Made by a program: the position numbers and the translations under genes
Source of the DNA: Nitrospirota bacterium
GTDB lineage: Bacteria; Nitrospirota; Thermodesulfovibrionia; Thermodesulfovibrionales; Dissulfurispiraceae
Assembly: GCA_004321915.1 (NCBI GenBank)
Contig: SCQE01000012.1
Location: forward strand, 1 to 64,000
Reading direction: 5' to 3'
DNA: 64,000 bases
Shown here: one piece after another, positions 199-40,806 of the stretch
Position numbering within the stretch: position 1 is the stretch's first letter
Layout of the letters: every line of letters starts with the position of its first letter
The notes under the pieces: generated by a model
The model's input: the letters and a program-made list of their open reading frames with translations, nothing else
What the model was told of the DNA's origin: nothing
Databases searched by the model: none

Positions 199-1548
199 TC
201 AATCCGGGTCCGTTGCCTGCTCTTCCTTCAGTATTCTCCATAGGCTGGTCCTCGATATGCCGAGGGCTTCGGACGCCTTAGACTTGTTGCCGCCGAAGAG
301 TTCAAGCACCCGCTCCGCGTATTCCCTGCTTATGTCATCGAGGGATTTGATGTTGTGCGGATCTATGGTTTCTATATGAAAGGCCTTGATCCCTTGAGGC
401 AGACTCTCGGGTGTTATCACGTTGTTTTTTTCGAGGATGATCGCCCTTTCTACGATGTTCTCCAATTCCCTTACATTGCCCGGGAAGCTGTAGTCTTTCA
501 GGATATTCATGGCTTCTTTCGCAAAGCCTTTTATTTTTTTGTTCGATTTCGGCAGGTGTTTCCGCAGGAAGTATTCGCCGAGCGGCGCTATGTCGTCAGG
601 CCGCTCCCTCAGGGGCGGTATGAATATTTCCATTACATTTAGCCTGTAATAGAGGTCTTCCCTGAACCTGCCTTCTGTTATGGCGCTTTTCACCTGCTGG
701 TTCGTGGCCGCTATAAACCTTACATCCACCCTGATGGGGCGCGTACCGCCGACCCTAAAAAATTCGCCCTCCTCTATCACTTTCAGCAGCTTTGCCTGAA
801 GATTGGGCGTCATTTCCGCTATTTCGTCGAGGAACAGAGTGCCGGTGTCCGCTATTTCGACAAGCCCCTGTTTTGTCCTGACAGCGCCTGTGAACGCGCC
901 TCTTTCGTGGCCGAACAGTTCGCTGGCAAGCAGCTCCTCTGTGAAAGTGGCGCAGTTGACCGATAAAAACGGCATGTTCTGTCTTTTACCTGTAAAGTGT
1001 ATTATCTTGGCCAGAAGACTTTTGCCTACGCCGGTTTCTCCGGTGAGAAGGACATTGCAGTCGGAATCTTTTATGCCCTCGATCAGAGTGAGTATGTCGT
1101 TCATGCTCTTGCTCTTGGCGATTATCGAGACCTTTTTGTCCATGCCTAAGTAAGTCTTGAGCGCGAGGTTCTCTTTACGAAGGGTCTTCTGCTGAATGAT
1201 CTTGCCGACCCTGAGCGCGAGGTCTTCGAGGTCGAAGGGCTTGGCGATATAATCGTAGGCCCCTTTTTTCATCGCGTCCACAGCCGAGCCGATACTGCCG
1301 AAACCGGTTATAAGCACCACTTCGGTTTCAGGATATTTTTCCTTTACTGCTTCAAGAAGCGCAATGCCGTCCATGCCCGGCATTTTTATGTCTGTAATCA
1401 GCAGGTCGAACTTATGCCGGTCGAGCAGGTCGAGGGCTTCGAGACCGTCCTTCGTTCCCGAGACTTTATGTCCTTCTTCGGTCAGGGTCTCGACGACATT
1501 TTCGAGGGTTATCTCTTCATCTTCGGCAACTAGTATTTTAAATGCCAT
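199..1548 (-). CDS. NtrC-family sigma-54-dependent response regulator
   Basis: A 449-residue cytoplasmic transcription activator. The N-terminal receiver domain (residues 1-120) has acidic residues VAEDEE, phospho-acceptor D53 in ITDIKMP and the conserved Lys at 103. The central AAA+ domain (about 138-375) carries Walker A GETGVGKS (170-177) and the sigma-54 contact loop GAFTGA (217-222). A Fis-type HTH closes the protein (about 421-443, KASEALGISRTSLWRIL). Family knowledge: it hydrolyses ATP to open sigma-54 promoters after phosphorylation. It lies 17 bp downstream of the sensor kinase gene, its obvious partner. The pair is divergent from the ABC importer cluster, but I found no TGGC/TGC -24/-12 element in front of that importer, so its target is unknown. 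Confidence 0.95.
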   Translation of the reverse strand: MAFKILVAEDEEITLENVVETLTEEGHKVSGTKDGLEALDLLDRHKFDLLITDIKMPGMDGIALLEAVKEKYPETEVVLITGFGSIGSAVDAMKKGAYDYIAKPFDLEDLALRVGKIIQQKTLRKENLALKTYLGMDKKVSIIAKSKSMNDILTLIEGIKDSDCNVLLTGETGVGKSLLAKIIHFTGKRQNMPFLSVNCATFTEELLASELFGHERGAFTGAVRTKQGLVEIADTGTLFLDEIAEMTPNLQAKLLKVIEEGEFFRVGGTRPIRVDVRFIAATNQQVKSAITEGRFREDLYYRLNVMEIFIPPLRERPDDIAPLGEYFLRKHLPKSNKKIKGFAKEAMNILKDYSFPGNVRELENIVERAIILEKNNVITPESLPQGIKAFHIETIDPHNIKSLDDISREYAERVLELFGGNKSKASEALGISRTSLWRILKEEQATDPD

Positions 1549-1565
1549 AATTGCAAGTTTAAAGG

Positions 1566-3146
1566 TTATCCGCCGCTCTTGGCAACATTCGTCCCCGGAA
1601 TGTTTTTGGGCAGCGAGATAATAAAGGTCGTGCCTTCGTTTTCTTTGCTTTCTACCCTCACATGGCCCCGGTGTTTTTGAATAATATTGAACACGATCGA
1701 AAGACCGAGACCGGTGCCTTTGTCCTTTGTGGTATAAAAAGGTTCGAATATCTTCTCGGTAGTTTCCTGTCCCATACCCTTGCCTGTGTCGGCCACCCTG
1801 ACAACGACATGATCGTCTTCTTCTACGGCCTTGACCGAAAGCCCGCCTTCGCCTGACATGGCATCGACGGCGTTCGAAAAAAGATTTATGAAGACCTGCT
1901 CCATCTGCTCCGGGTCTGCGTATATGACTATCTCAGGCGGATGCAGTTCGGCGGCGAATGAGATTCTTTCTGTGGCCGGCGTGTTGCCGAGATGTCTATA
2001 TGCGGCCGATATGAGGTTCCTCAGTTCCACGGCCGTGAAATGGGGCTCTCTTCCCCTAGCGAATTCTAACAGCTCCCCGACGATACTTTTGACCCTCATG
2101 GTCTGTCCGAAGATGTCGTCGAGTCCCTTTTTTACGGCCGGAGGACATTCGTCTCCGGATTTCTTGAGAAGCCTTTGCGCGGTGGTATAGATGTTGTTAA
2201 GAGGATTGTTCAGTTCATGGGCCACTCCTGCAGCGAAAGTGCCGATGGCCGCCAGTTTCCTGCTGTGCAGAAGTTCTTTCTCCCGCTGCGAAAGCCGGTC
2301 TTCCATGTAATTGAATTTTTCGATGAGTACGCCGACCTCGTCCTTGGACCATTTTTCAGGGGTTTGGGCGACATGGTCGAAAGCTCCGGCCCCGGCTTTC
2401 TCAACGACAGAGGTAAGAATCCGCAGCCGTCTGACTACGCTGTTCATTACGAACAGAAAAATCCCGAACCCTACTGCGAGGAACAAGGGGAAGAATACCA
2501 GTATCGCGGTCCGAGAAGCGTGGATAAAACCGTCCACTTTCTCACGGGCCGACTTGTCCAGTTCTTTCGATACTGCGAGGATGTTTTCCCCTGTTTTCCG
2601 GATGGCCGTGATTTCGGTGTCCAACTCCTTCAGGGAAATTATCAATGGGTGGTTGGTGTTCAGGGAGAAGTTTTTTTCGAGATGGCCTACATCTTCGAGC
2701 GGTTTATCTAGGAAGTTTGCTTCGAGCAGTCCGCTCACCTTTGCGTAAGCGGGCGAAGCTTTTTTAAGTCTTTCGGATTCGCCTGACGCGATGCCTACCG
2801 ATTTTTCGATGGCCGCGAATTGTACGCGGTACTCCTGAATGAGACTCTTGAGCGAGGCTATGCGTTCGATATGGGCGCTTTCTACGCTTTTCGTTATATC
2901 TTCGAGTTCCGTAAGATACCTGTAGATCGCCTTTGACTCGTCATCAGCCTTAGTGCGGGTAAATAGAAAGTAGTTCTTTTCGTGTCTTCTCAGCTGGAGC
3001 GATTTGCTTCTTACAGTATCGGTCATTTCCAAAAACGCGGTCTCTTTTTTCATCTCGATAAAATTCAGATACAGAAATACGGAAAGCAGGGCTATGACCA
3101 AGGCGCTGACAAAAAAACTCAGGAGGATCTTTTTTTGCAGGTACAT
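1566..3146 (-). CDS. Membrane sensor histidine kinase (HAMP-HisKA-HATPase), partner of the NtrC-type regulator
   Basis: A 526-residue kinase. A first membrane helix (about 7-29) and a second (about 213-236) flank an approximately 180-residue, helix-rich periplasmic sensor region resembling four-helix-bundle sensors. A HAMP linker follows (about 237-290). The dimerisation domain has the H-box GVAHELNNPLNN with phospho-acceptor H310. The C-terminal ATPase domain has DTGKGM and GTGLGLS boxes. It is the first gene of a two-gene operon with the regulator. The ATG at 3146 has no Shine-Dalgarno. A TATAAT hexamer on the minus strand (3157-3162) ends 10 bp before it, so the message may be almost leaderless. 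The ligand is unknown. Confidence 0.95.
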   Translation of the reverse strand: MYLQKKILLSFFVSALVIALLSVFLYLNFIEMKKETAFLEMTDTVRSKSLQLRRHEKNYFLFTRTKADDESKAIYRYLTELEDITKSVESAHIERIASLKSLIQEYRVQFAAIEKSVGIASGESERLKKASPAYAKVSGLLEANFLDKPLEDVGHLEKNFSLNTNHPLIISLKELDTEITAIRKTGENILAVSKELDKSAREKVDGFIHASRTAILVFFPLFLAVGFGIFLFVMNSVVRRLRILTSVVEKAGAGAFDHVAQTPEKWSKDEVGVLIEKFNYMEDRLSQREKELLHSRKLAAIGTFAAGVAHELNNPLNNIYTTAQRLLKKSGDECPPAVKKGLDDIFGQTMRVKSIVGELLEFARGREPHFTAVELRNLISAAYRHLGNTPATERISFAAELHPPEIVIYADPEQMEQVFINLFSNAVDAMSGEGGLSVKAVEEDDHVVVRVADTGKGMGQETTEKIFEPFYTTKDKGTGLGLSIVFNIIQKHRGHVRVESKENEGTTFIISLPKNIPGTNVAKSGG

Positions 3147-3226: not shown

Positions 3227-4390
3227 ATGATCTTCAGAAGGTGCTTATCGGCTGTGGCCGCGCTTTTGACGGCTTGTTCGTTTTCTTCCTTTGCTTATGC
3301 TCAGGACCAACTTCACACGATAAAGGTCGGGCATGTGGGGCATGACCACCAGATAGCGATTTACGCTGCAATAGACGCAGGCAAGTCGCTCGAAAAGGAG
3401 TACGGCGTTTATTTCAATGAACTTAAGCGCCACGAGATGTACGAGCTTTACGACAAGGGGAAACTTGTCGCAAGGGTGCAGATGGTAAGGGTCGGCGGCG
3501 GGGCCAAGATGCCTGCCGCGCTTGAGCAGAACCACATAGAGGTGGGGCTCGGAGGCATAGGGCCTGTGATGAAATTTATAGAGAAGGGCGCTCCGATAAA
3601 GATATTGGCCCCGCTTAACAGTGACGGCGATGCGATGGTTGTGAGGACCGATTTTCAGGCTGCTTCGTGGGAGGATTTTTCGCGCGAGGTGAAGATGTCT
3701 AAAAAACCGGTGAAGATCGGATATAAAGACCCGATGGCTAACGCCTACATGATATTCGTCCGCGCGCTTACTGAGGAGGGCATCAGCTACGGCCACGAGA
3801 CCCTCGATAAGGACGGCAGGCAGGTACAGGTGATAATGGTCAATCTGCAGGGTGAAGAAAACGCCTTGCCTTCCCTCGAAAGCAGGATAGTCGACGGCGT
3901 GGTGGTCAATGAGCCTGCGCCTTCGCTCTTGGTGCACAAAGGCGCGGCCAAGAGGCTTGCGAACCTTTCGGAACTGCCGCCTAAAGGCAAATTCGCGGGG
4001 CATCCGTGCTGCATTGTCGCTGCGTCCGAAAAGACGATAAAAGAAAAACGTGCGGTTCTTAAAGCATTGCTTAAGGCCATTGCTGCAGGCGGAGACATAA
4101 TCCAGCATGACAGGGAAAAGGCGCTCGCATCCGAAACCTCGTGGACAAAGACCCCGGCGGAGGTCGGCAAACGGAGCATAATGAACGTGAGCTATATCGT
4201 AAAACCGGACGAAGCGTGGCAAAAGGCTGTGGATAAGTGGCTCACGATGATGTCCGGTTCAGGGCAGTTCAAAGGCAGGTTCGGCGGCAAGTCCGTGCAG
4301 GACATCCGCGCTGCGGCCCTTTCTCTCGATTTGATGAACGAGGCCCTTTCCGAGATGAAATTAAAGAAACAGGACTTGAAAAAGAAATGA
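3227..4390 (+). CDS. NitT/TauT-type ABC transporter substrate-binding protein
   Basis: 387 residues with a Sec signal peptide ending near AYA/QD (residues 23-26), so it is a periplasmic binding protein. The mature N-terminus (TIKVGHVGHDHQIAIYAA) and the central pattern (a GGIGP segment, then VVNEPAPSLLVHKG) fit the NMT1/SsuA-like family that feeds nitrate, taurine, sulfonate or thiamine-precursor importers. The sequence does not say which ligand. A good ribosome-binding site (AAAAGGAG) lies 8 bp before the ATG. The gene overlaps the permease by 4 bp (ATGA) and starts a co-directional run to 9547. Confidence 0.85.
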   Translation: MIFRRCLSAVAALLTACSFSSFAYAQDQLHTIKVGHVGHDHQIAIYAAIDAGKSLEKEYGVYFNELKRHEMYELYDKGKLVARVQMVRVGGGAKMPAALEQNHIEVGLGGIGPVMKFIEKGAPIKILAPLNSDGDAMVVRTDFQAASWEDFSREVKMSKKPVKIGYKDPMANAYMIFVRALTEEGISYGHETLDKDGRQVQVIMVNLQGEENALPSLESRIVDGVVVNEPAPSLLVHKGAAKRLANLSELPPKGKFAGHPCCIVAASEKTIKEKRAVLKALLKAIAAGGDIIQHDREKALASETSWTKTPAEVGKRSIMNVSYIVKPDEAWQKAVDKWLTMMSGSGQFKGRFGGKSVQDIRAAALSLDLMNEALSEMKLKKQDLKKK

Positions 4391-5262
4391 CTATGTTGCC
4401 CGGTAGCAAGCCGTTGCACTGGGCGGACCGCCTTCCCGCGAAGCTGCTGCTCGGCGCGATAATCCCCGCGCTGATGATCTTCTTCTGGTGGCTTGCAGGC
4501 AGGAGCGGCACGGCTGTAGTGCCTTCGATTATGGAAGTGTTGAAGGTGCTTGCCGACCCTTTTGAACCTCCTGCCGACATGTACTCGTCGTCCTTGGCGT
4601 TTTCTCTGCTGATGACCCTGTTGCGGCTTGTCATAGGCTTTGGCCTCGGCGTTGTTACCGCAGTTCCGCTCGGCTTGCTGGCCGGAAGTAACAGAGTTAT
4701 CGACAGGATACTCGGTCCCTCGATCCAGATGTCGAGGGCGATAAACCCGATAGTTTTGCTCCCGATAGCTGTCGCGTTGTTCGGTCTGTCTTCAATCGCA
4801 ACGATATTAGCCGGAGGGCCGGACGCGTGGAAGCACGATGTATTGGATCAGGTGCAGCTCGCGATGATATTCATTCTCTGGTGGGGCGCGTTCTTTCCTG
4901 TGTTCGTGAGCACGGTGCACGGAGTAAAGGGAGTGCGCGCTGCCTATTTAGAAACCATGGAAATGATGGGCGCGGACAGCCGGACTGTTTTCAGGAGGGT
5001 GATATTCCCCCACGCGCTGCCTTCGATAGCGAACGGAATGAGGATAGGCATGGGAGTGACTTGGCTTGTGCTGCTTGCGGCCGAGGTCTTCCCCGGCACG
5101 AGGAGCGGGCTCGGATACATGCTCTGCACAGCCTGCAAGACGTCCGATTACCAGTACACCTTTGCGGCAATGATATTAATCGCTGTTTTAGGCCTTTCGA
5201 TAGATACGGCCATGAGCAGGTTCGAAAAGAGGGCGGGGCACTGGCGCTCTCCCGAGCGGTAG
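4387..5262 (+). CDS. ABC transporter permease (NitT/TauT type)
   Basis: A 291-residue inner-membrane subunit with about six helices. The EAA-type loop that contacts the ATPase is visible as METMEMMGADSRTVFRRVIF. I chose the ATG at 4387 because it overlaps the TGA of the binding-protein gene (ATGA). A longer in-frame reading from 4237 would add 50 residues of arginine-rich sequence unlike a permease N-terminus. One cytoplasmic stretch (SIATILAGGPDAWKHDVLDQ) is longer than usual for this family. It forms the import channel together with the preceding and following genes. Confidence 0.88.
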   Translation: MTMLPGSKPLHWADRLPAKLLLGAIIPALMIFFWWLAGRSGTAVVPSIMEVLKVLADPFEPPADMYSSSLAFSLLMTLLRLVIGFGLGVVTAVPLGLLAGSNRVIDRILGPSIQMSRAINPIVLLPIAVALFGLSSIATILAGGPDAWKHDVLDQVQLAMIFILWWGAFFPVFVSTVHGVKGVRAAYLETMEMMGADSRTVFRRVIFPHALPSIANGMRIGMGVTWLVLLAAEVFPGTRSGLGYMLCTACKTSDYQYTFAAMILIAVLGLSIDTAMSRFEKRAGHWRSPER

Positions 5263-5263
5263 C

Positions 5264-6043
5264 GTGGCCGATATGGAAAAAATACCGGCCTTCAGTCTGA
5301 CCGGAGTTTCGAAGAACTTTCTGAGCAGGCAGGGAGTGCGTGTCAATGCGCTCGAAGGGGTTTCATTCAGTGCAGAGAAGGGGGCGATAACCTGTCTCGT
5401 CGGACCGACCGGTTCCGGCAAATCAACGGTCCTTAGATTGTTGTCAGGCCTTGAACTGCCTGATTCAGGAGAGGTCTTGGTCGACGGGGCCGCTGCCGCT
5501 CACGGCAAGATAAGCATAGGCTATCTGACGCAGCATCATACCCTGTTCCCGTGGCTCTCTACCTCAGAAAATATCGGACTGCCCCTTGAAATTAAGAAAA
5601 TCCACGAAGCGGAGCGCAGCCGAAGAGTAGCGCGCATCTGTGAAATGCTCGGGCTTAAAGACGCGCAAAAGCTGTATCCTTATGAGCTTTCGGGCGGCAT
5701 GCAGCAGAGGTCCGCACTCGGCAGGCTATTGGCCTCCGATTCCCTCTATTGGCTTATGGATGAGCCGTTCAATGCGCTTGACGAACGGACGCGCCACCAG
5801 CTTCAGGCCTTGCTAATAAAGCTTGCGTCGGAGAACGGCGTATCGGTTTTATTCGTGACCCACTCGATCGACGAGGCGGTTTTTCTTGCGGACAGGATAA
5901 TAGTACTCTCGCCGAATCCCGGGCGTGTGGAGGGTTCTTTCGACATTTCGATAAAGCATCCGCGCAACAGGCTCTCGCCGGAATACGGTAAGCTCATAGA
6001 AGAGGTCAGGCAGAGCATAGAAGCGGTGATCAAAGAGGAATAA
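5264..6043 (+). CDS. ABC transporter ATP-binding protein (NitT/TauT type)
   Basis: A 259-residue cytoplasmic ATPase subunit with Walker A GPTGSGKST (about 47-55), Q-loop LTQHHTLFPWL, signature LSGGMQQR, Walker B LYWLMDEPF and the H-loop VTHSIDEA. The start is GTG at 5264, one base after the permease stop; an ATG at 5273 is an alternative that loses three residues. It energises the importer formed with the two upstream genes. The next gene starts immediately after its stop (6044), so transcription almost certainly continues into the unusual membrane protein. Confidence 0.93.
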   Translation: MADMEKIPAFSLTGVSKNFLSRQGVRVNALEGVSFSAEKGAITCLVGPTGSGKSTVLRLLSGLELPDSGEVLVDGAAAAHGKISIGYLTQHHTLFPWLSTSENIGLPLEIKKIHEAERSRRVARICEMLGLKDAQKLYPYELSGGMQQRSALGRLLASDSLYWLMDEPFNALDERTRHQLQALLIKLASENGVSVLFVTHSIDEAVFLADRIIVLSPNPGRVEGSFDISIKHPRNRLSPEYGKLIEEVRQSIEAVIKEE

Positions 6044-8137
6044 ATGTTTTCATCTTTGCCCATAATCGTTATGGGTTTTTCTTCGCTCCTGATGCAGGTG
6101 GTATGCATCAGGTCTCTGCTAGCTCTTTTTTCGGGCAATGAGCTTGTAATCTGCATCACACTCGCAGTCTGGCTGGCTTCTGTCGGTTTGGGGAGTTTTT
6201 ACGGATGGAGGTTTAAGGCTCGGAGCTCCTTTGCGAATTCCTTTCTTGCCGCTGCTTTGACGGCTCAATTCTCGTTCTTTATTATCGGAGCTTTTCGTAT
6301 GTTTTTTGTCTTTTCATCGGGAGAGGTCGTACCGTTTGCTGCGACCGTGGCCCTCTCTTTTGGGGCACTCTTTCCGCTCTGTTTTGTGTTCGGGATGCAG
6401 TTCCCTTTGGCAGTGGAGAATTTGAAAAAGAAGGCTTCTGAGGTTTATTGGCTTGAGGCCTGCGGCGCTTTTGCGGCAGGCGTCTTGTTTGTCTTTGCTT
6501 TCTCGGGCAGGGTGGATTCTACGGCGATAGTTGCATTGACCGCTTTTTTGAACATGATCGTCTTTGGCGTCCTTTCGCGCAGAAGGATTTTCTTGTTTCT
6601 TCTCATTTTGCCGCTCCTCTTTTATTTTGCGGAACGGAAGCTGTTTCACTATTCCTTGCCCCAAGGAGTGACCCAAGTTGAACGGCTTGAATCCAGATAC
6701 GGCGAGATAGCGGCAGGCAAGCGTGCAGGCCAGACGGGCGTTTATGTTTCGGGCGCCTTTGCCTTCGCATATCCGGACATGCAGACAGAGGAAAATATCC
6801 ACATACCGCTCACAGCGCATGAAGCGCCTAAAAAAATCCTTGTTATCGGCGGTTCTCCGGCAGTTGTCAGGGAACTTCTGAAATATCCTGTCGAAAATAT
6901 AGACTTTATAGAACTCGACCCTGCGCTGCTGGATTTGTCAAAGCGGCTTCTCTCTCCGGAAGACAGATACTTTCTCGACGATAAACGTGTCAGCCTGATA
7001 ACTCAGGACGGCAGGTCTTTTGTAAAATCTGCTCATCCCAAGTATGACCTGTTGGTATTAAATCTTCCGGAGCCTTCCACCGCCTCGATAAACAGGTTTT
7101 ATACTATGGATTTTTTTAAGGAGGCAAAGGCGGCACTGAACAAAGGCGGAATGCTTGCGCTTTCCCTTCCCGCCTCGTACGGCTATATAGGAAAGAGGAT
7201 GCAATGGGCCAACGGCTCGGTATATGGATCTCTCAGGCGTGTGTTTGCACATGTCGAGGTTTCGTCCGAGGAGTACGGTATTATGCTTGCGTCGGATTCT
7301 TCGGTGCTCTCCGGCCCTCAAATCCTCGACGGCAGGTTTAACGAGCGGGGGGTAGGCACAGTCTATTTCAGGGGAGAGCTCTTTTACGACATCTTCGATA
7401 GATTGAAGACGGACGCTGTTAAAGAGAGGCTCGGCAGGGTGGATGTGTTGAACACAGACAGCAGGCCGGTCGCGTATCTCTATAATTTGATGATATGGTC
7501 AGATATCCACGGCGGGGGAATATTGAATTGGGTGTCAGGCACAGGCGGATTCATATTCGGGGCGGTTTTGGTGCTTCTGTTTTCTGCGGCAGGATATGTG
7601 ATCTTCAAAAGGAGAAAGGCCGTGTACTTCTCGCTTTTTACGACAGGCTATGTTTCTATGGCCTTTTCATCCGTGCTTATCTTGGGTTTTCAATCGGCCT
7701 TCGGTTTTGTGTATGAAAGCATCGGTCTGTTGAGCGCGGTTTTTATGGCCGGGCTTGCTGCAGGCTCGCTGCTGGCCGAAAGGAAGTTCGGCGGTCTAAA
7801 ATATCTGAAGGCTGCCGAGGCTTTGTCAGCATTGTTTTTTATCGCAGCCGTATATATGCTCAAAAGCAGCCTGTCGTTTTATGCCTTCGGCTTTTTATGC
7901 GGCATAATAGGGGGGATTCAATTTGGTGCGGCAGCAGCGGTTTTGGGCAGGAGAGATGAGGCTGCGACTTCAGGCAGGCTTTACGCGACGGATATCTCAG
8001 GCTCATTTGCAGGGGCTTTGATTACCGCGCTTTTTGCGATACCGGTATTGGGGATGGAGACGACACTCTTTATATTATCGGCAATGAAACTTTTATCACT
8101 GGCGTTTCTGTCATCGGCAGACCATGAAAAGGTTTAG
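6044..8137 (+). CDS. Polytopic membrane protein with embedded degenerate spermidine-synthase-like domain
   Basis: 697 residues in three parts: about six to seven membrane helices (1-198); a soluble Rossmann-like domain (about 215-430) that follows the aminopropyltransferase/methyltransferase plan; and about six more helices (497-690). The SAM-type glycine loop reads VIGGSPAVV (267-275), where the genuine SpeE at 39970 has GGGDGG. The acidic residue after the next strand is kept (FIELDP, 288-293). The catalytic Asp region reads LLVLNLPEPST (336-346) instead of VDSTD, so classic aminopropyl transfer is doubtful. Fusions of this kind are annotated as spermidine-synthase-like in databases, but their function is not established to my knowledge. 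It is translationally adjacent to the ABC ATPase (0 bp) and overlaps the FMN-binding gene by 14 bp, so a joint role in membrane transport or redox is inferred. Confidence 0.75.
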   Translation: MFSSLPIIVMGFSSLLMQVVCIRSLLALFSGNELVICITLAVWLASVGLGSFYGWRFKARSSFANSFLAAALTAQFSFFIIGAFRMFFVFSSGEVVPFAATVALSFGALFPLCFVFGMQFPLAVENLKKKASEVYWLEACGAFAAGVLFVFAFSGRVDSTAIVALTAFLNMIVFGVLSRRRIFLFLLILPLLFYFAERKLFHYSLPQGVTQVERLESRYGEIAAGKRAGQTGVYVSGAFAFAYPDMQTEENIHIPLTAHEAPKKILVIGGSPAVVRELLKYPVENIDFIELDPALLDLSKRLLSPEDRYFLDDKRVSLITQDGRSFVKSAHPKYDLLVLNLPEPSTASINRFYTMDFFKEAKAALNKGGMLALSLPASYGYIGKRMQWANGSVYGSLRRVFAHVEVSSEEYGIMLASDSSVLSGPQILDGRFNERGVGTVYFRGELFYDIFDRLKTDAVKERLGRVDVLNTDSRPVAYLYNLMIWSDIHGGGILNWVSGTGGFIFGAVLVLLFSAAGYVIFKRRKAVYFSLFTTGYVSMAFSSVLILGFQSAFGFVYESIGLLSAVFMAGLAAGSLLAERKFGGLKYLKAAEALSALFFIAAVYMLKSSLSFYAFGFLCGIIGGIQFGAAAAVLGRRDEAATSGRLYATDISGSFAGALITALFAIPVLGMETTLFILSAMKLLSLAFLSSADHEKV

Positions 8138-9350
8138 GATAATCTTTTTAGGCATAGTTGCTTTGTCATTTGCCGTAGGGCAATGGCTTAACGTATCCAT
8201 GTCCGCTAAAACGCCGGATGAAGCCGCCCTTTTGAAGGACATGGTTCCGGATGCCCGTTTTTCGGCGAAGGGGTGGATGCCTCCTCATTATTCATCCGAG
8301 GGGTTGATAGCGTTCAACACATACGATCTCGTTCCTTCCATCAGGGGCTATGCTGGACCTATAAAACTTCTTGTAGTGATGGACCGCAGCGGTTTCATCA
8401 GGGGCGTAAGGATCATCGGGCACAGAGAGACCAAGAATTATATTCATTTCATGGAGTCGTCAGAATATCTCGCCCGGCTTGCAGGAAAGCATCCGTCGGA
8501 GCCTTTTCAACAGGGCAGGGACATAGACGCGATAAGCAGGGCGACTGTCAGCGTTGACGCGCTCGCAAAGACACTTAAGGGGGCCTCGGCGCTTGCGGCC
8601 TCGTCCTTATTAGGTTTGGATGTAAAAGGCGAGGCAGGGGCAGGTGCGTCTGATTATCGGCCGTTTGTTTACGGGGCCTTTTTTGTCGTTTCTTTTGCGT
8701 TTTATTTTGCCACGAGAAAGACCCCGGAATATTCGATAGCGCGGGACATATCTTTGGCAGTGAGCATAGTAGTTTTAGGCATTTACCTGTCGAGCCCCTT
8801 TTCCGTGCTGCATGTCTTTTCCCTGATCCTCGGAGGCTTCTCGTCGTCTGCGCTCTGGTATACGCTTATTATCAGCGTCGCTTTGTCGGTCATTGCAGCA
8901 GGAAGGTTTTATTGCGGCTGGCTTTGCCAGTTCGGCGCGCTCTGCGAGTTTGCGGGCCGGATGCCTGTGTCGAAATGGGAGATGTCTTCCGATACGGATG
9001 AAAAATGTCGGCGCTTGAAGTATGTTGTTCTCGGACTTGTTACTGCGCTCGTTCTTATCAGCGGAAGGCCCGATTACGGCAACTACGAGGTTTATGTTAC
9101 GCTCTTTTCGTTTCACGGCAGCTGGCCGGCATGGCTGCTGGTTTTTGCGATGCTTATTGCCAACCTGAAGGTAAAACGATTCTGGTGCAGGTATCTCTGT
9201 CCTGTTGCCGCGCTTAGCGGGCTTTTCTCAAGGCAGGACGCGGGCTATGTGAGCAGGAGCGACTGCCCGATGTCCAACACCCCGAACCCGCACATATCAG
9301 AGTGCATAAGGTGCAACAGGTGTTATAAAGGTAGTTTGATAAAACCATGA
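8124..9350 (+). CDS. FMN-binding / NosR-NapH-like 4Fe-4S membrane protein
   Basis: 408 residues. An N-terminal signal-anchor helix (about 5-22) precedes an extracytoplasmic FMN-binding domain (about 62-160). Its DAISRATVSV motif (135-144) resembles sites where ApbE attaches FMN to Thr; T141 is the expected residue. About five membrane helices follow, with two NapH/NosR-type cysteine signatures (CGWLCQFGALC and CRYLCPVAAL). The protein ends shortly after a single cysteine group, C381 then C394, C397 and C400. NosR and NapH normally continue into two complete ferredoxin sets ending in CP, so this ferredoxin part looks shortened. Likely role: electron transfer between the quinone pool or cytoplasm and a periplasmic partner. 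It overlaps both neighbours (14 bp and 4 bp). No apbE lies in the window. Confidence 0.82.
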   Translation: MKRFRIIFLGIVALSFAVGQWLNVSMSAKTPDEAALLKDMVPDARFSAKGWMPPHYSSEGLIAFNTYDLVPSIRGYAGPIKLLVVMDRSGFIRGVRIIGHRETKNYIHFMESSEYLARLAGKHPSEPFQQGRDIDAISRATVSVDALAKTLKGASALAASSLLGLDVKGEAGAGASDYRPFVYGAFFVVSFAFYFATRKTPEYSIARDISLAVSIVVLGIYLSSPFSVLHVFSLILGGFSSSALWYTLIISVALSVIAAGRFYCGWLCQFGALCEFAGRMPVSKWEMSSDTDEKCRRLKYVVLGLVTALVLISGRPDYGNYEVYVTLFSFHGSWPAWLLVFAMLIANLKVKRFWCRYLCPVAALSGLFSRQDAGYVSRSDCPMSNTPNPHISECIRCNRCYKGSLIKP

Positions 9351-9547
9351 CCGACGACAAAAAATTCAGGATCCTGATATTCTTCAGCGCTGCGCTGACA
9401 GCGCTTGTAATTTTCTATAATGTGTTTGAGGAACGTATCGATTCTGATATGGTCCAATATGTTCAGAGACGTATGCATTACGAGAGCGTCATATCGAAAA
9501 AGGGTCTGAGCCTGCATGAGGCAAAGCACTGGAAGAAGAAAGAATAG
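9347..9547 (+). CDS. Small single-helix membrane protein of unknown function
   Basis: 66 residues starting with an ATG that overlaps the stop of the FMN-binding gene (ATGA). A single hydrophobic helix (about 8-25, ILIFFSAALTALVIFYNVF) is followed by a charged, mostly helical tail. I do not recognise the family. Tight coupling to the FMN/4Fe-4S gene suggests an accessory subunit of the same complex. The segment to 9610 holds a promoter for the next gene. Confidence 0.6.
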   Translation: MTDDKKFRILIFFSAALTALVIFYNVFEERIDSDMVQYVQRRMHYESVISKKGLSLHEAKHWKKKE

Positions 9548-9610: not shown

Positions 9611-9817
9611 ATGGAATCCTATTACACTAAAGAACAGCTTGCAAAATATCTGAAGATGAACGGGGCTGCGCTTGACCGGATCGTCGAAAAAGGGCAGTTG
9701 GCCGGGATCATGACTCCCAAGAAGATCATGATATTCAAAAAGAGCGAGGTCGATGCTTGGTTAGCGGCCAAGAAGAAAAAGATCAATTCTATGATGGAGA
9801 ACGAAGAGATACTCTGA
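9611..9817 (+). CDS. Small excisionase/MerR-like helix-turn-helix protein
   Basis: 68 residues. The N-terminal pattern YYTKEQLAKYLKMNGAALDR followed by a wing with IFKKSEVDAWL matches the compact HTH_17 (excisionase-type) DNA-binding fold, which ends in a lysine-rich tail. Such proteins act as small regulators or recombination directionality factors; no integrase is nearby, so regulation is more likely. The ATG follows AGGGGG. Its TGA (9815-9817) directly abuts the stop codon of the convergent gene at 9818, leaving no room for a terminator. Confidence 0.7.
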   Translation: MESYYTKEQLAKYLKMNGAALDRIVEKGQLAGIMTPKKIMIFKKSEVDAWLAAKKKKINSMMENEEIL

Positions 9818-39969: not shown

Positions 39970-40806
39970 CTACCAGTTCAGCTTTCTCTGCATCAGTTTT
40001 TCGTACATTTTAGGGGGCATAAACGCCTGCTGATGGATTTCGTCGCTGTAATATCTGGTATCGACCTTGAATTCCCGCCTCATTTTCCGCATATCGTGCT
40101 TCTTGGAGGCTGCCGAGAAGGTCCACCAGTTGCCGGCATATGTGGCTATGTTTGCGGTGTAGAGATCCACTGTCGGGAAGATCAGTTTCATCGCCTCTTG
40201 GACCTCGATTACCATGTCTTTGTGAAAATGCAGCGATTCCGAGAGCGTTACGAGCATTCCCTCGTCGGTCAGGCAGTCTTTAACGGACTTGAAGAACTCT
40301 ACAGTGAAAAGGCTTTTTGCAAAGCCCACTATGTCGGTCGAGTCAACTATTACAACGTCGATGTCGCCGTCGCGGCCTTTAACGAACTCGGCCCCGTCCA
40401 TGCATTTTATCTCTACGCGCTTGTCGTCAACGCCGCAGGCCACCGACGGGAAATATTTCTTCGACACATTGATAACATCTTCGTCTATCTCGATGAAATA
40501 TACCTTTTCAACGCTGTCGTGGCGCAGCACTTCCCTTACTGTGCCGCCGTCTCCGCCGCCGATTACGATCACGTTTTTAGGGTTCGGGTGGGCGTGCATC
40601 GCTATGTGGACCAGCATCTCATGGTAAAAGAGCTCGTCCCGCTCCGTTATCTGAACAACGCCGTCGAGTATAAGCATCTTGCCGAAGTGTTTGTTCTCGA
40701 TGACCATAATATCCTGAAATGGGCTGGTGCTCTTGTGCAGCACATTCTCCACCTCGTAAACATACTGTATCGGCGCATAAGGGTCTTTTTCGAAAAATTT
40801 GATCAT
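39970..40806 (-). CDS. speE: Spermidine synthase (aminopropyltransferase)
   Basis: 278 residues. Polyamine aminopropyltransferase motifs are intact: MLILDGVVQITERDEL, the decarboxylated-SAM loop IGGGDGG (82-88), EIDEDVI, and the catalytic VDSTDIVG (D155, D158). The C-terminal YAGNWWTFSAASK fits the putrescine-binding side. It transfers an aminopropyl group to putrescine (or another diamine) to make spermidine. The gene lies 15 bp after the decarboxylase gene, so the two form a small polyamine operon. Decarboxylated SAM must come from a SAM decarboxylase not in this window. Confidence 0.96.
   Translation of the reverse strand: MIKFFEKDPYAPIQYVYEVENVLHKSTSPFQDIMVIENKHFGKMLILDGVVQITERDELFYHEMLVHIAMHAHPNPKNVIVIGGGDGGTVREVLRHDSVEKVYFIEIDEDVINVSKKYFPSVACGVDDKRVEIKCMDGAEFVKGRDGDIDVVIVDSTDIVGFAKSLFTVEFFKSVKDCLTDEGMLVTLSESLHFHKDMVIEVQEAMKLIFPTVDLYTANIATYAGNWWTFSAASKKHDMRKMRREFKVDTRYYSDEIHQQAFMPPKMYEKLMQRKLNW

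Follow-up and report, generated by a model that had tools for sequence, protein, structure and literature searches.

Six genes at positions 3227-9547 of a 64,000-nt stretch of Nitrospirota DNA (assembly GCA_004321915.1, contig SCQE01000012.1, positions 1 to 64,000; hereafter the window) raise the question of whether an ATP-binding cassette (ABC) importer and three membrane proteins encoded in one tight cluster share a single function. A reading made from the letters of this DNA, here called the sequence-only reading, had described six genes joined by 0-14 bp and proposed one task for all of them. The packing was described correctly, and the junctions are mostly overlaps (in gene order a 4-bp overlap, a 1-bp gap, 0 bp, a 14-bp overlap and a 4-bp overlap). 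However, the six genes are two units: a local ABC importer and a conserved three-gene membrane module, which consists of a spermidine-synthase-like (SpeE-like) membrane protein (6044..8137), a flavin/4Fe-4S protein that we call FMN4Fe (8124..9350) and a protein of 66 residues, p66 (9347..9547), all on the + strand. As they are conserved and show low ratios of nonsynonymous to synonymous substitution rates (dN/dS) between the window's genome and its sister species (G001), we judge the genes to be more than chance; the values, 0.17 for SpeE, 0.10 for FMN4Fe and 0.07 for p66, are rough, with dS saturated. The Pfam matches given below for five of the genes all lie above the Pfam cut-offs, p66 matches no Pfam family, and among the NCBIfam models listed (for the ATPase, the best 25 of 188) no curated cut-off is reached by any of the six.

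Further loci were collected by an FMN4Fe profile search of GTDB genomes, with FMN4Fe as the sole query, and 21 Nitrospirota loci with close relatives were compared. In most of them the SpeE gene lies immediately upstream of the FMN4Fe gene, with p66 near. The sister species carries the three genes in the same order (66% identity to the window for SpeE, 74% for FMN4Fe and 77% for p66), and its locus is also that of the public metagenome-assembled genome (MAG) 'Nitrospirae bacterium MYbin3' (L040). In 13 loci a single protein of some 1200-1400 residues combines SpeE and FMN4Fe; the hosts are Planctomycetota, Omnitrophota, a deltaproteobacterial MAG, one Nitrospirae MAG and the purple sulfur bacterium Lamprocystis. 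Nine of the 13 fusions also carry a p66-like transmembrane helix and tail at their C-terminus (KKLSDREAEFYKKVE against KKGLSLHEAKHWKKKE), and at two further fusion loci a separate small gene carries a p66-type tail; an hhalign comparison of p66 tails with fusion tails gave P 4.7e-5 over 27 columns. Because the order is the same in Nitrospirota and the genes are fused into one polypeptide elsewhere, we regard the triad as one functional unit, and to this extent the proposal of a shared function stands; it does not extend to the importer.

The main partner of the triad was missed by the sequence-only reading because its genes lie outside the window. These are the genes of the AmmeMemoRadiSam system, defined by the hypothetical equivalogs TIGR04335, TIGR04336 and TIGR04337 of NCBIfam. 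Genes for a radical S-adenosylmethionine (radical-SAM) enzyme and for a MEMO-AMMECR1 protein are both found within 4 kb of FMN4Fe in 12 of the 21 Nitrospirota loci, and one or both are adjacent in 11 of the 13 fusion loci, the remaining two fusions being close to a contig end. The partners score far above the cut-offs (TIGR04337 362-381 bits vs 220, TIGR04336 230-278 vs 26, TIGR04335 146-180 vs 99). A second sample of 294 planctomycete genomes yielded further fusions, accompanied by MEMO and radical-SAM genes in G545 and G425 and by MEMO in G597; in G456 both partners are present and the contig breaks inside the SpeE gene, while the contig of G530 is too short to tell. In the window's genome the radical-SAM, small MTRR protein and MEMO-AMMECR1 genes stand in tandem on another contig (C125:7122-9623): the radical-SAM enzyme (C125:7116-8093; TIGR04337, 380 bits vs cut-off 220) belongs to the system-type clade described below, the MTRR gene (locus L159) lies at C125:8099-8221 on the + strand, and MEMO (C125:8280-9077; TIGR04336, 281 bits vs cut-off 26) shares a 469-aa open reading frame with the AMMECR1 half, as judged by alignment with confirmed fusions. 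The SpeE-like protein, FMN4Fe and p66 form one unit, which occurs in five bacterial phyla either next to AmmeMemoRadiSam genes or with such genes elsewhere in the genome.

Co-occurrence was examined in 61 genomes, namely the window's own and 60 relatives. In a tree of 55 radical-SAM proteins the system-type enzymes part from the generic ones with 100/100 support, and the G009 protein sits on a long branch. Full-length SpeE-like proteins occur in 12 of the 61 genomes, 11 of which also have a system-type radical-SAM enzyme (Fisher P 3e-11); in G003, the one exception, the SpeE gene reaches the end of its contig. Like the AmmeMemoRadiSam system as defined, the set found here combines radical-SAM, MEMO and AMMECR1 in one operon. 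It differs in that MEMO and AMMECR1 are fused and apparently exported, in that two small membrane proteins and the SpeE-like/FMN/4Fe-4S membrane arm are added, and in that the radical-SAM enzymes of the set branch off as a clade of their own. The best reading is a membrane-anchored and apparently new variant of this widespread, uncharacterised system. More specifically, we give a probability of about 0.6 to the view that an expanded AmmeMemoRadiSam system has the SpeE-like protein, FMN4Fe and p66 as its membrane arm, which provides a flavin-wired electron path to exported MEMO-AMMECR1.

How such a path might run is suggested by the individual proteins. FMN4Fe (Pfam FMN_bind 39 bits, Fer4_5 44 bits) begins with an extracytoplasmic domain for binding flavin mononucleotide (FMN), followed by membrane helices that bear 4Fe-4S cysteine motifs. 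By fold match the flavin domain is of the RnfG/NqrC type; the structure model is of moderate confidence (pLDDT 73) and its matches (RnfG) span the flavin domain only. Thr141 in the stretch ISRATVS (codon 8544..8546, + strand) is the predicted covalent FMN site and is invariant in 19 relatives (8-row and 19-row alignments), and the genome encodes the flavin transferase gene apbE (C116:52734-53570, 304 bits). The protein resembles the NapH-like flavinylated transmembrane electron-transfer proteins, including NosR and PceC (PMC8238504), with their outer N-terminal FMN_bind domain and Fer4_5 membrane part, but differs in having no nitrous-oxide or halide reductase partner and a single short C-terminal cysteine cluster. 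NosR proper was rejected (66.5 bits vs an NCBIfam cut-off of 1000), and NapH models gave 40-50 bits vs cut-offs of 213-234. The earlier assignment to NosR/NapH-like electron transfer holds; both Pfam domains are above their cut-offs, and FMN4Fe fits the NapH-like group. Within this group, proteins whose FMN domain is N-terminal have been recognised as a class of transmembrane electron carriers, most of them with unknown partners (PMC8238504, Meheust et al. 2021).

The SpeE-like protein (Pfam Spermine_synth 82 bits) is predicted to consist of a spermidine-synthase fold flanked by two helix bundles (AlphaFold2, pLDDT 86, pTM 0.88). The degenerate synthase domain covers residues 246-475 (6779..7468, + strand; HMMER alignment, 1uir/3anx), and the Foldseek matches of the model are spermidine synthases (E 1.5e-11 to 1uir). 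In place of the catalytic DSTDP stands NLPEP at residues 340-344, so the catalytic Asp is gone, and the glycine-rich SAM loop is eroded (GGSP instead of GGGDGG); among SpeE-like proteins the erosion is strongest in Planctomycetota. The description as a degenerate aminopropyltransferase was therefore apt: the fold is kept, and the motifs rule out an active spermidine synthase. Fused proteins of the major facilitator superfamily and spermidine synthase (NF037959) share the fold and the membrane-domain context; here the window protein reaches 30 bits vs a cut-off of 40, the Asp is missing and the SAM loop eroded. As the active site is eroded, our guess is that the protein is a scaffold or ligand-handling subunit. 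A canonical spermidine synthase of about 280 aa, with GGGDGG and DSTD intact, is encoded elsewhere in the window (40003-40755, - strand). Solo SpeE-like proteins of about 800 residues adjoin a radical-SAM gene of ~330-400 residues at three loci in Planctomycetota (L235, L236 and L238), possibly a reduced variant, and in G045 the gene immediately before SpeE encodes a twin-arginine-type protein that by eye resembles DUF362 (L039, 5830-6843, + strand).

In the system MEMO-AMMECR1 proteins, H66, H98, D203, H206 and C244 are conserved together with LRGCIG, and we take the first five to resemble the metal site of MEMO proteins. Their N-termini in Nitrospirota look by eye like lipoprotein-type signals (in the window's genome, LLFVPAC); the generic MEMO of this genome, by contrast, begins directly at the domain. 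Judging from these features, the system MEMO-AMMECR1 is probably exported and metal-binding. Human MEMO1 is described as a copper-dependent redox protein (PMC7694686). The expanded system would then comprise, besides the membrane arm, a cytoplasmic radical-SAM enzyme, the small MTRR protein and the exported MEMO-AMMECR1 fusion. The 4Fe-4S clusters of FMN4Fe would take up electrons from a quinol or from a donor in the cytoplasm and hand them to the ApbE-attached FMN at the outer face, from which they would reach the metal-binding MEMO domain. Having ceased to be a normal aminopropyltransferase, the SpeE-like protein would serve as membrane scaffold or ligand-handling subunit, while p66 and the MTRR protein might provide docking for the exported protein or display a target at the membrane.

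Several observations weigh against this reading. No system genes are adjacent in nine of the 21 Nitrospirota loci, several of which are at contig ends and several not; in the window's own genome the system genes are on contig C125 and the triad is on C17; and a fusion-bearing MAG of 1.5 Mb (L065, G062), one of the two genomes with the fusion near a contig end, gave no MEMO match. The Fisher value for the association of SpeE with the system-type radical-SAM enzyme ignores shared ancestry, and genomes without a fetched radical-SAM locus were counted as generic from their lower scores. SpeE adjoins the radical-SAM gene in three genomes without an FMN4Fe ortholog (G040, G052 and G009), and neither FMN4Fe nor MEMO lies near the solo SpeE-like genes of Planctomycetota. 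Finally, the flavin site of FMN4Fe reads SRAT, vs the flavinylation motif [S/T]GA[S/T]. Because of the three genomes with SpeE and radical-SAM but no FMN4Fe, we consider SpeE the steadiest partner and regard the flavin arm as frequent, though not universal. The separation of FMN4Fe from system genes in several genomes also fits a different and clearly less probable explanation, namely that the flavin arm works with a different acceptor or donor, such as a quinone, a lipid, an isoprenoid or a periplasmic oxidoreductase, and that the radical-SAM and MEMO genes are merely co-regulated with it. The NapH-like proteins are a modular group with many different oxidoreductase partners (PMC8238504), and the archaeal MEMO gene is part of the mevalonate operon (PMC3857490). 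Yet the SpeE fusions of several phyla always keep radical-SAM and/or MEMO adjacent where contigs allow, and no other oxidoreductase recurs in the loci.

The two small proteins offer a further possibility. p66 has one transmembrane helix and a tail that is conserved in 18 loci (consensus RRxYYExVISKKGLSLHxAxYW, residues 41-62, bases 9467-9532). The MTRR protein, of about 40-60 residues, is encoded between the radical-SAM and MEMO genes in most system loci and ends in KARFWRSTDET in the window's genome; Nitrospirota MTRR proteins end in A-x-(F/Y)-W-(R/K), a motif in common with the C-terminal part of p66. These shared tails could be docking motifs; that they are sites modified by the radical-SAM enzyme or MEMO is less likely. 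If they were modified, the radical-SAM enzyme and the MEMO domain, which has a dioxygenase-like fold, would act on the aromatic pair of the tails, yielding a new peptide-derived, membrane-tethered redox centre wired to FMN4Fe, and the system would be a maturation machine. Such a scheme would account for a C-terminal aromatic motif shared by two unrelated small membrane proteins of one operon and for the p66 tail being the most constrained part of the module; moreover, radical-SAM enzymes related to those of Memo-AMMECR1 systems are found in peptide-processing systems (PMC7159879). We nevertheless think it unlikely, given that the tails are predicted to be outside while the radical-SAM enzyme is cytoplasmic, and that planctomycete MTRR proteins end differently (GKWxG); the motif may serve docking.

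The remaining three genes of the cluster encode the importer: an NMT1-like solute-binding protein (3227..4390, + strand; Pfam NMT1_2 66 bits), a permease (4387..5262, + strand; BPD_transp_1 94 bits, best NCBIfam model SaoP) and an ATPase with a GTG start (5264..6043, + strand; ABC_tran 104 bits, best NCBIfam model SaoA). The sister species lacks the importer, and the binding protein found only partial matches of 27-30%, none over 30% identity, in the 60 close relatives. Among 396 Nitrospirota genomes there are five other orthologs of the binding protein, 52-60% identical overall, and the triad is near none of these five loci. With the sister species and the 60 relatives lacking the importer, and the five orthologous loci lacking the triad, we conclude that the importer is a local accessory and not part of the membrane module. 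The comparison, whose outcome the sequence-only reading had itself named as refuting, rules out the six genes as a general system, and what is left of the suggested import coupled to a membrane redox step is an addition peculiar to this genome. Even here we consider it very improbable that the six genes form one importer-redox unit that takes up a small solute for use or modification at the membrane. The genes are translationally coupled in this genome, and the neighbours of the importer orthologs (L205-L209) include genes for FtrD-like membrane proteins, ResB, CcsA and TlpA-like proteins, which would hint at a common metal or redox theme; against this, in addition to the absences just described, about 20 other triad loci are without an importer. 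One ortholog, in G357, adjoins a different spermidine-synthase-like membrane protein of 706 aa with a weak PF01564 match (L205, 11885-14005, - strand).

As to the ligand, the importer resembles Sao and NitT/TauT-type importers in that SaoP and SaoA are the best-scoring models for permease and ATPase and the binding protein is NMT1-like, but it stays under all equivalog cut-offs and its binding protein has conserved His/Cys motifs. A nitrate, taurine or sulfonate importer was rejected on the cut-offs (ntrB 90 vs 209, TauC 91 vs 342, SsuA family 56 vs 164 bits), and those for a Sao importer were not reached either (SaoX 22.8 vs 300, SaoP 110 vs 295, SaoA 196 vs 360 bits). A PDB sequence search with the binding-protein profile gave zero matches. 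Since the motifs VGHVGHDHQ and GHPCC are invariant across the six orthologs and the best-scoring Sao transporters are a family linked to heavy metals, a metal or metal-chelate is a reasonable guess for the ligand. Divergently from the importer lie a sigma-54 response regulator (199-1548) and a sensor histidine kinase (1566-3146; together 199-3146, - strand), which could control this operon; after the operon follows a 68-residue excisionase-like helix-turn-helix protein (9611-9817, + strand; HTH_17 just under the cut-off).

For the membrane arm no description was found in the literature searched, which did not cover Burroughs et al. 2019, and we have lowered the claim of novelty accordingly. 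That article (JBC) is reportedly the main analysis of MEMO gene contexts. Five papers there name AmmeMemoRadiSam and have, by title and abstract, other subjects. Nor did the search turn up a paper on a spermidine-synthase fusion combined with radical-SAM. MEMO and AMMECR1, which have links to disease, are conserved all the way from prokaryotes to humans, and there is no agreement on the biochemical function of either protein or of their radical-SAM partner. With its proposed transmembrane electron wire, an apparently exported MEMO-AMMECR1 and two tiny partner proteins, the bacterial variant suggests that a redox reaction takes place outside the cytoplasm, and its flavin, clusters, lipoprotein and small-protein tails offer concrete handles on the system. 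Among the many NapH-like flavin systems that lack an assignment, one would also gain a candidate partner, and a repurposed spermidine-synthase family would gain a context.

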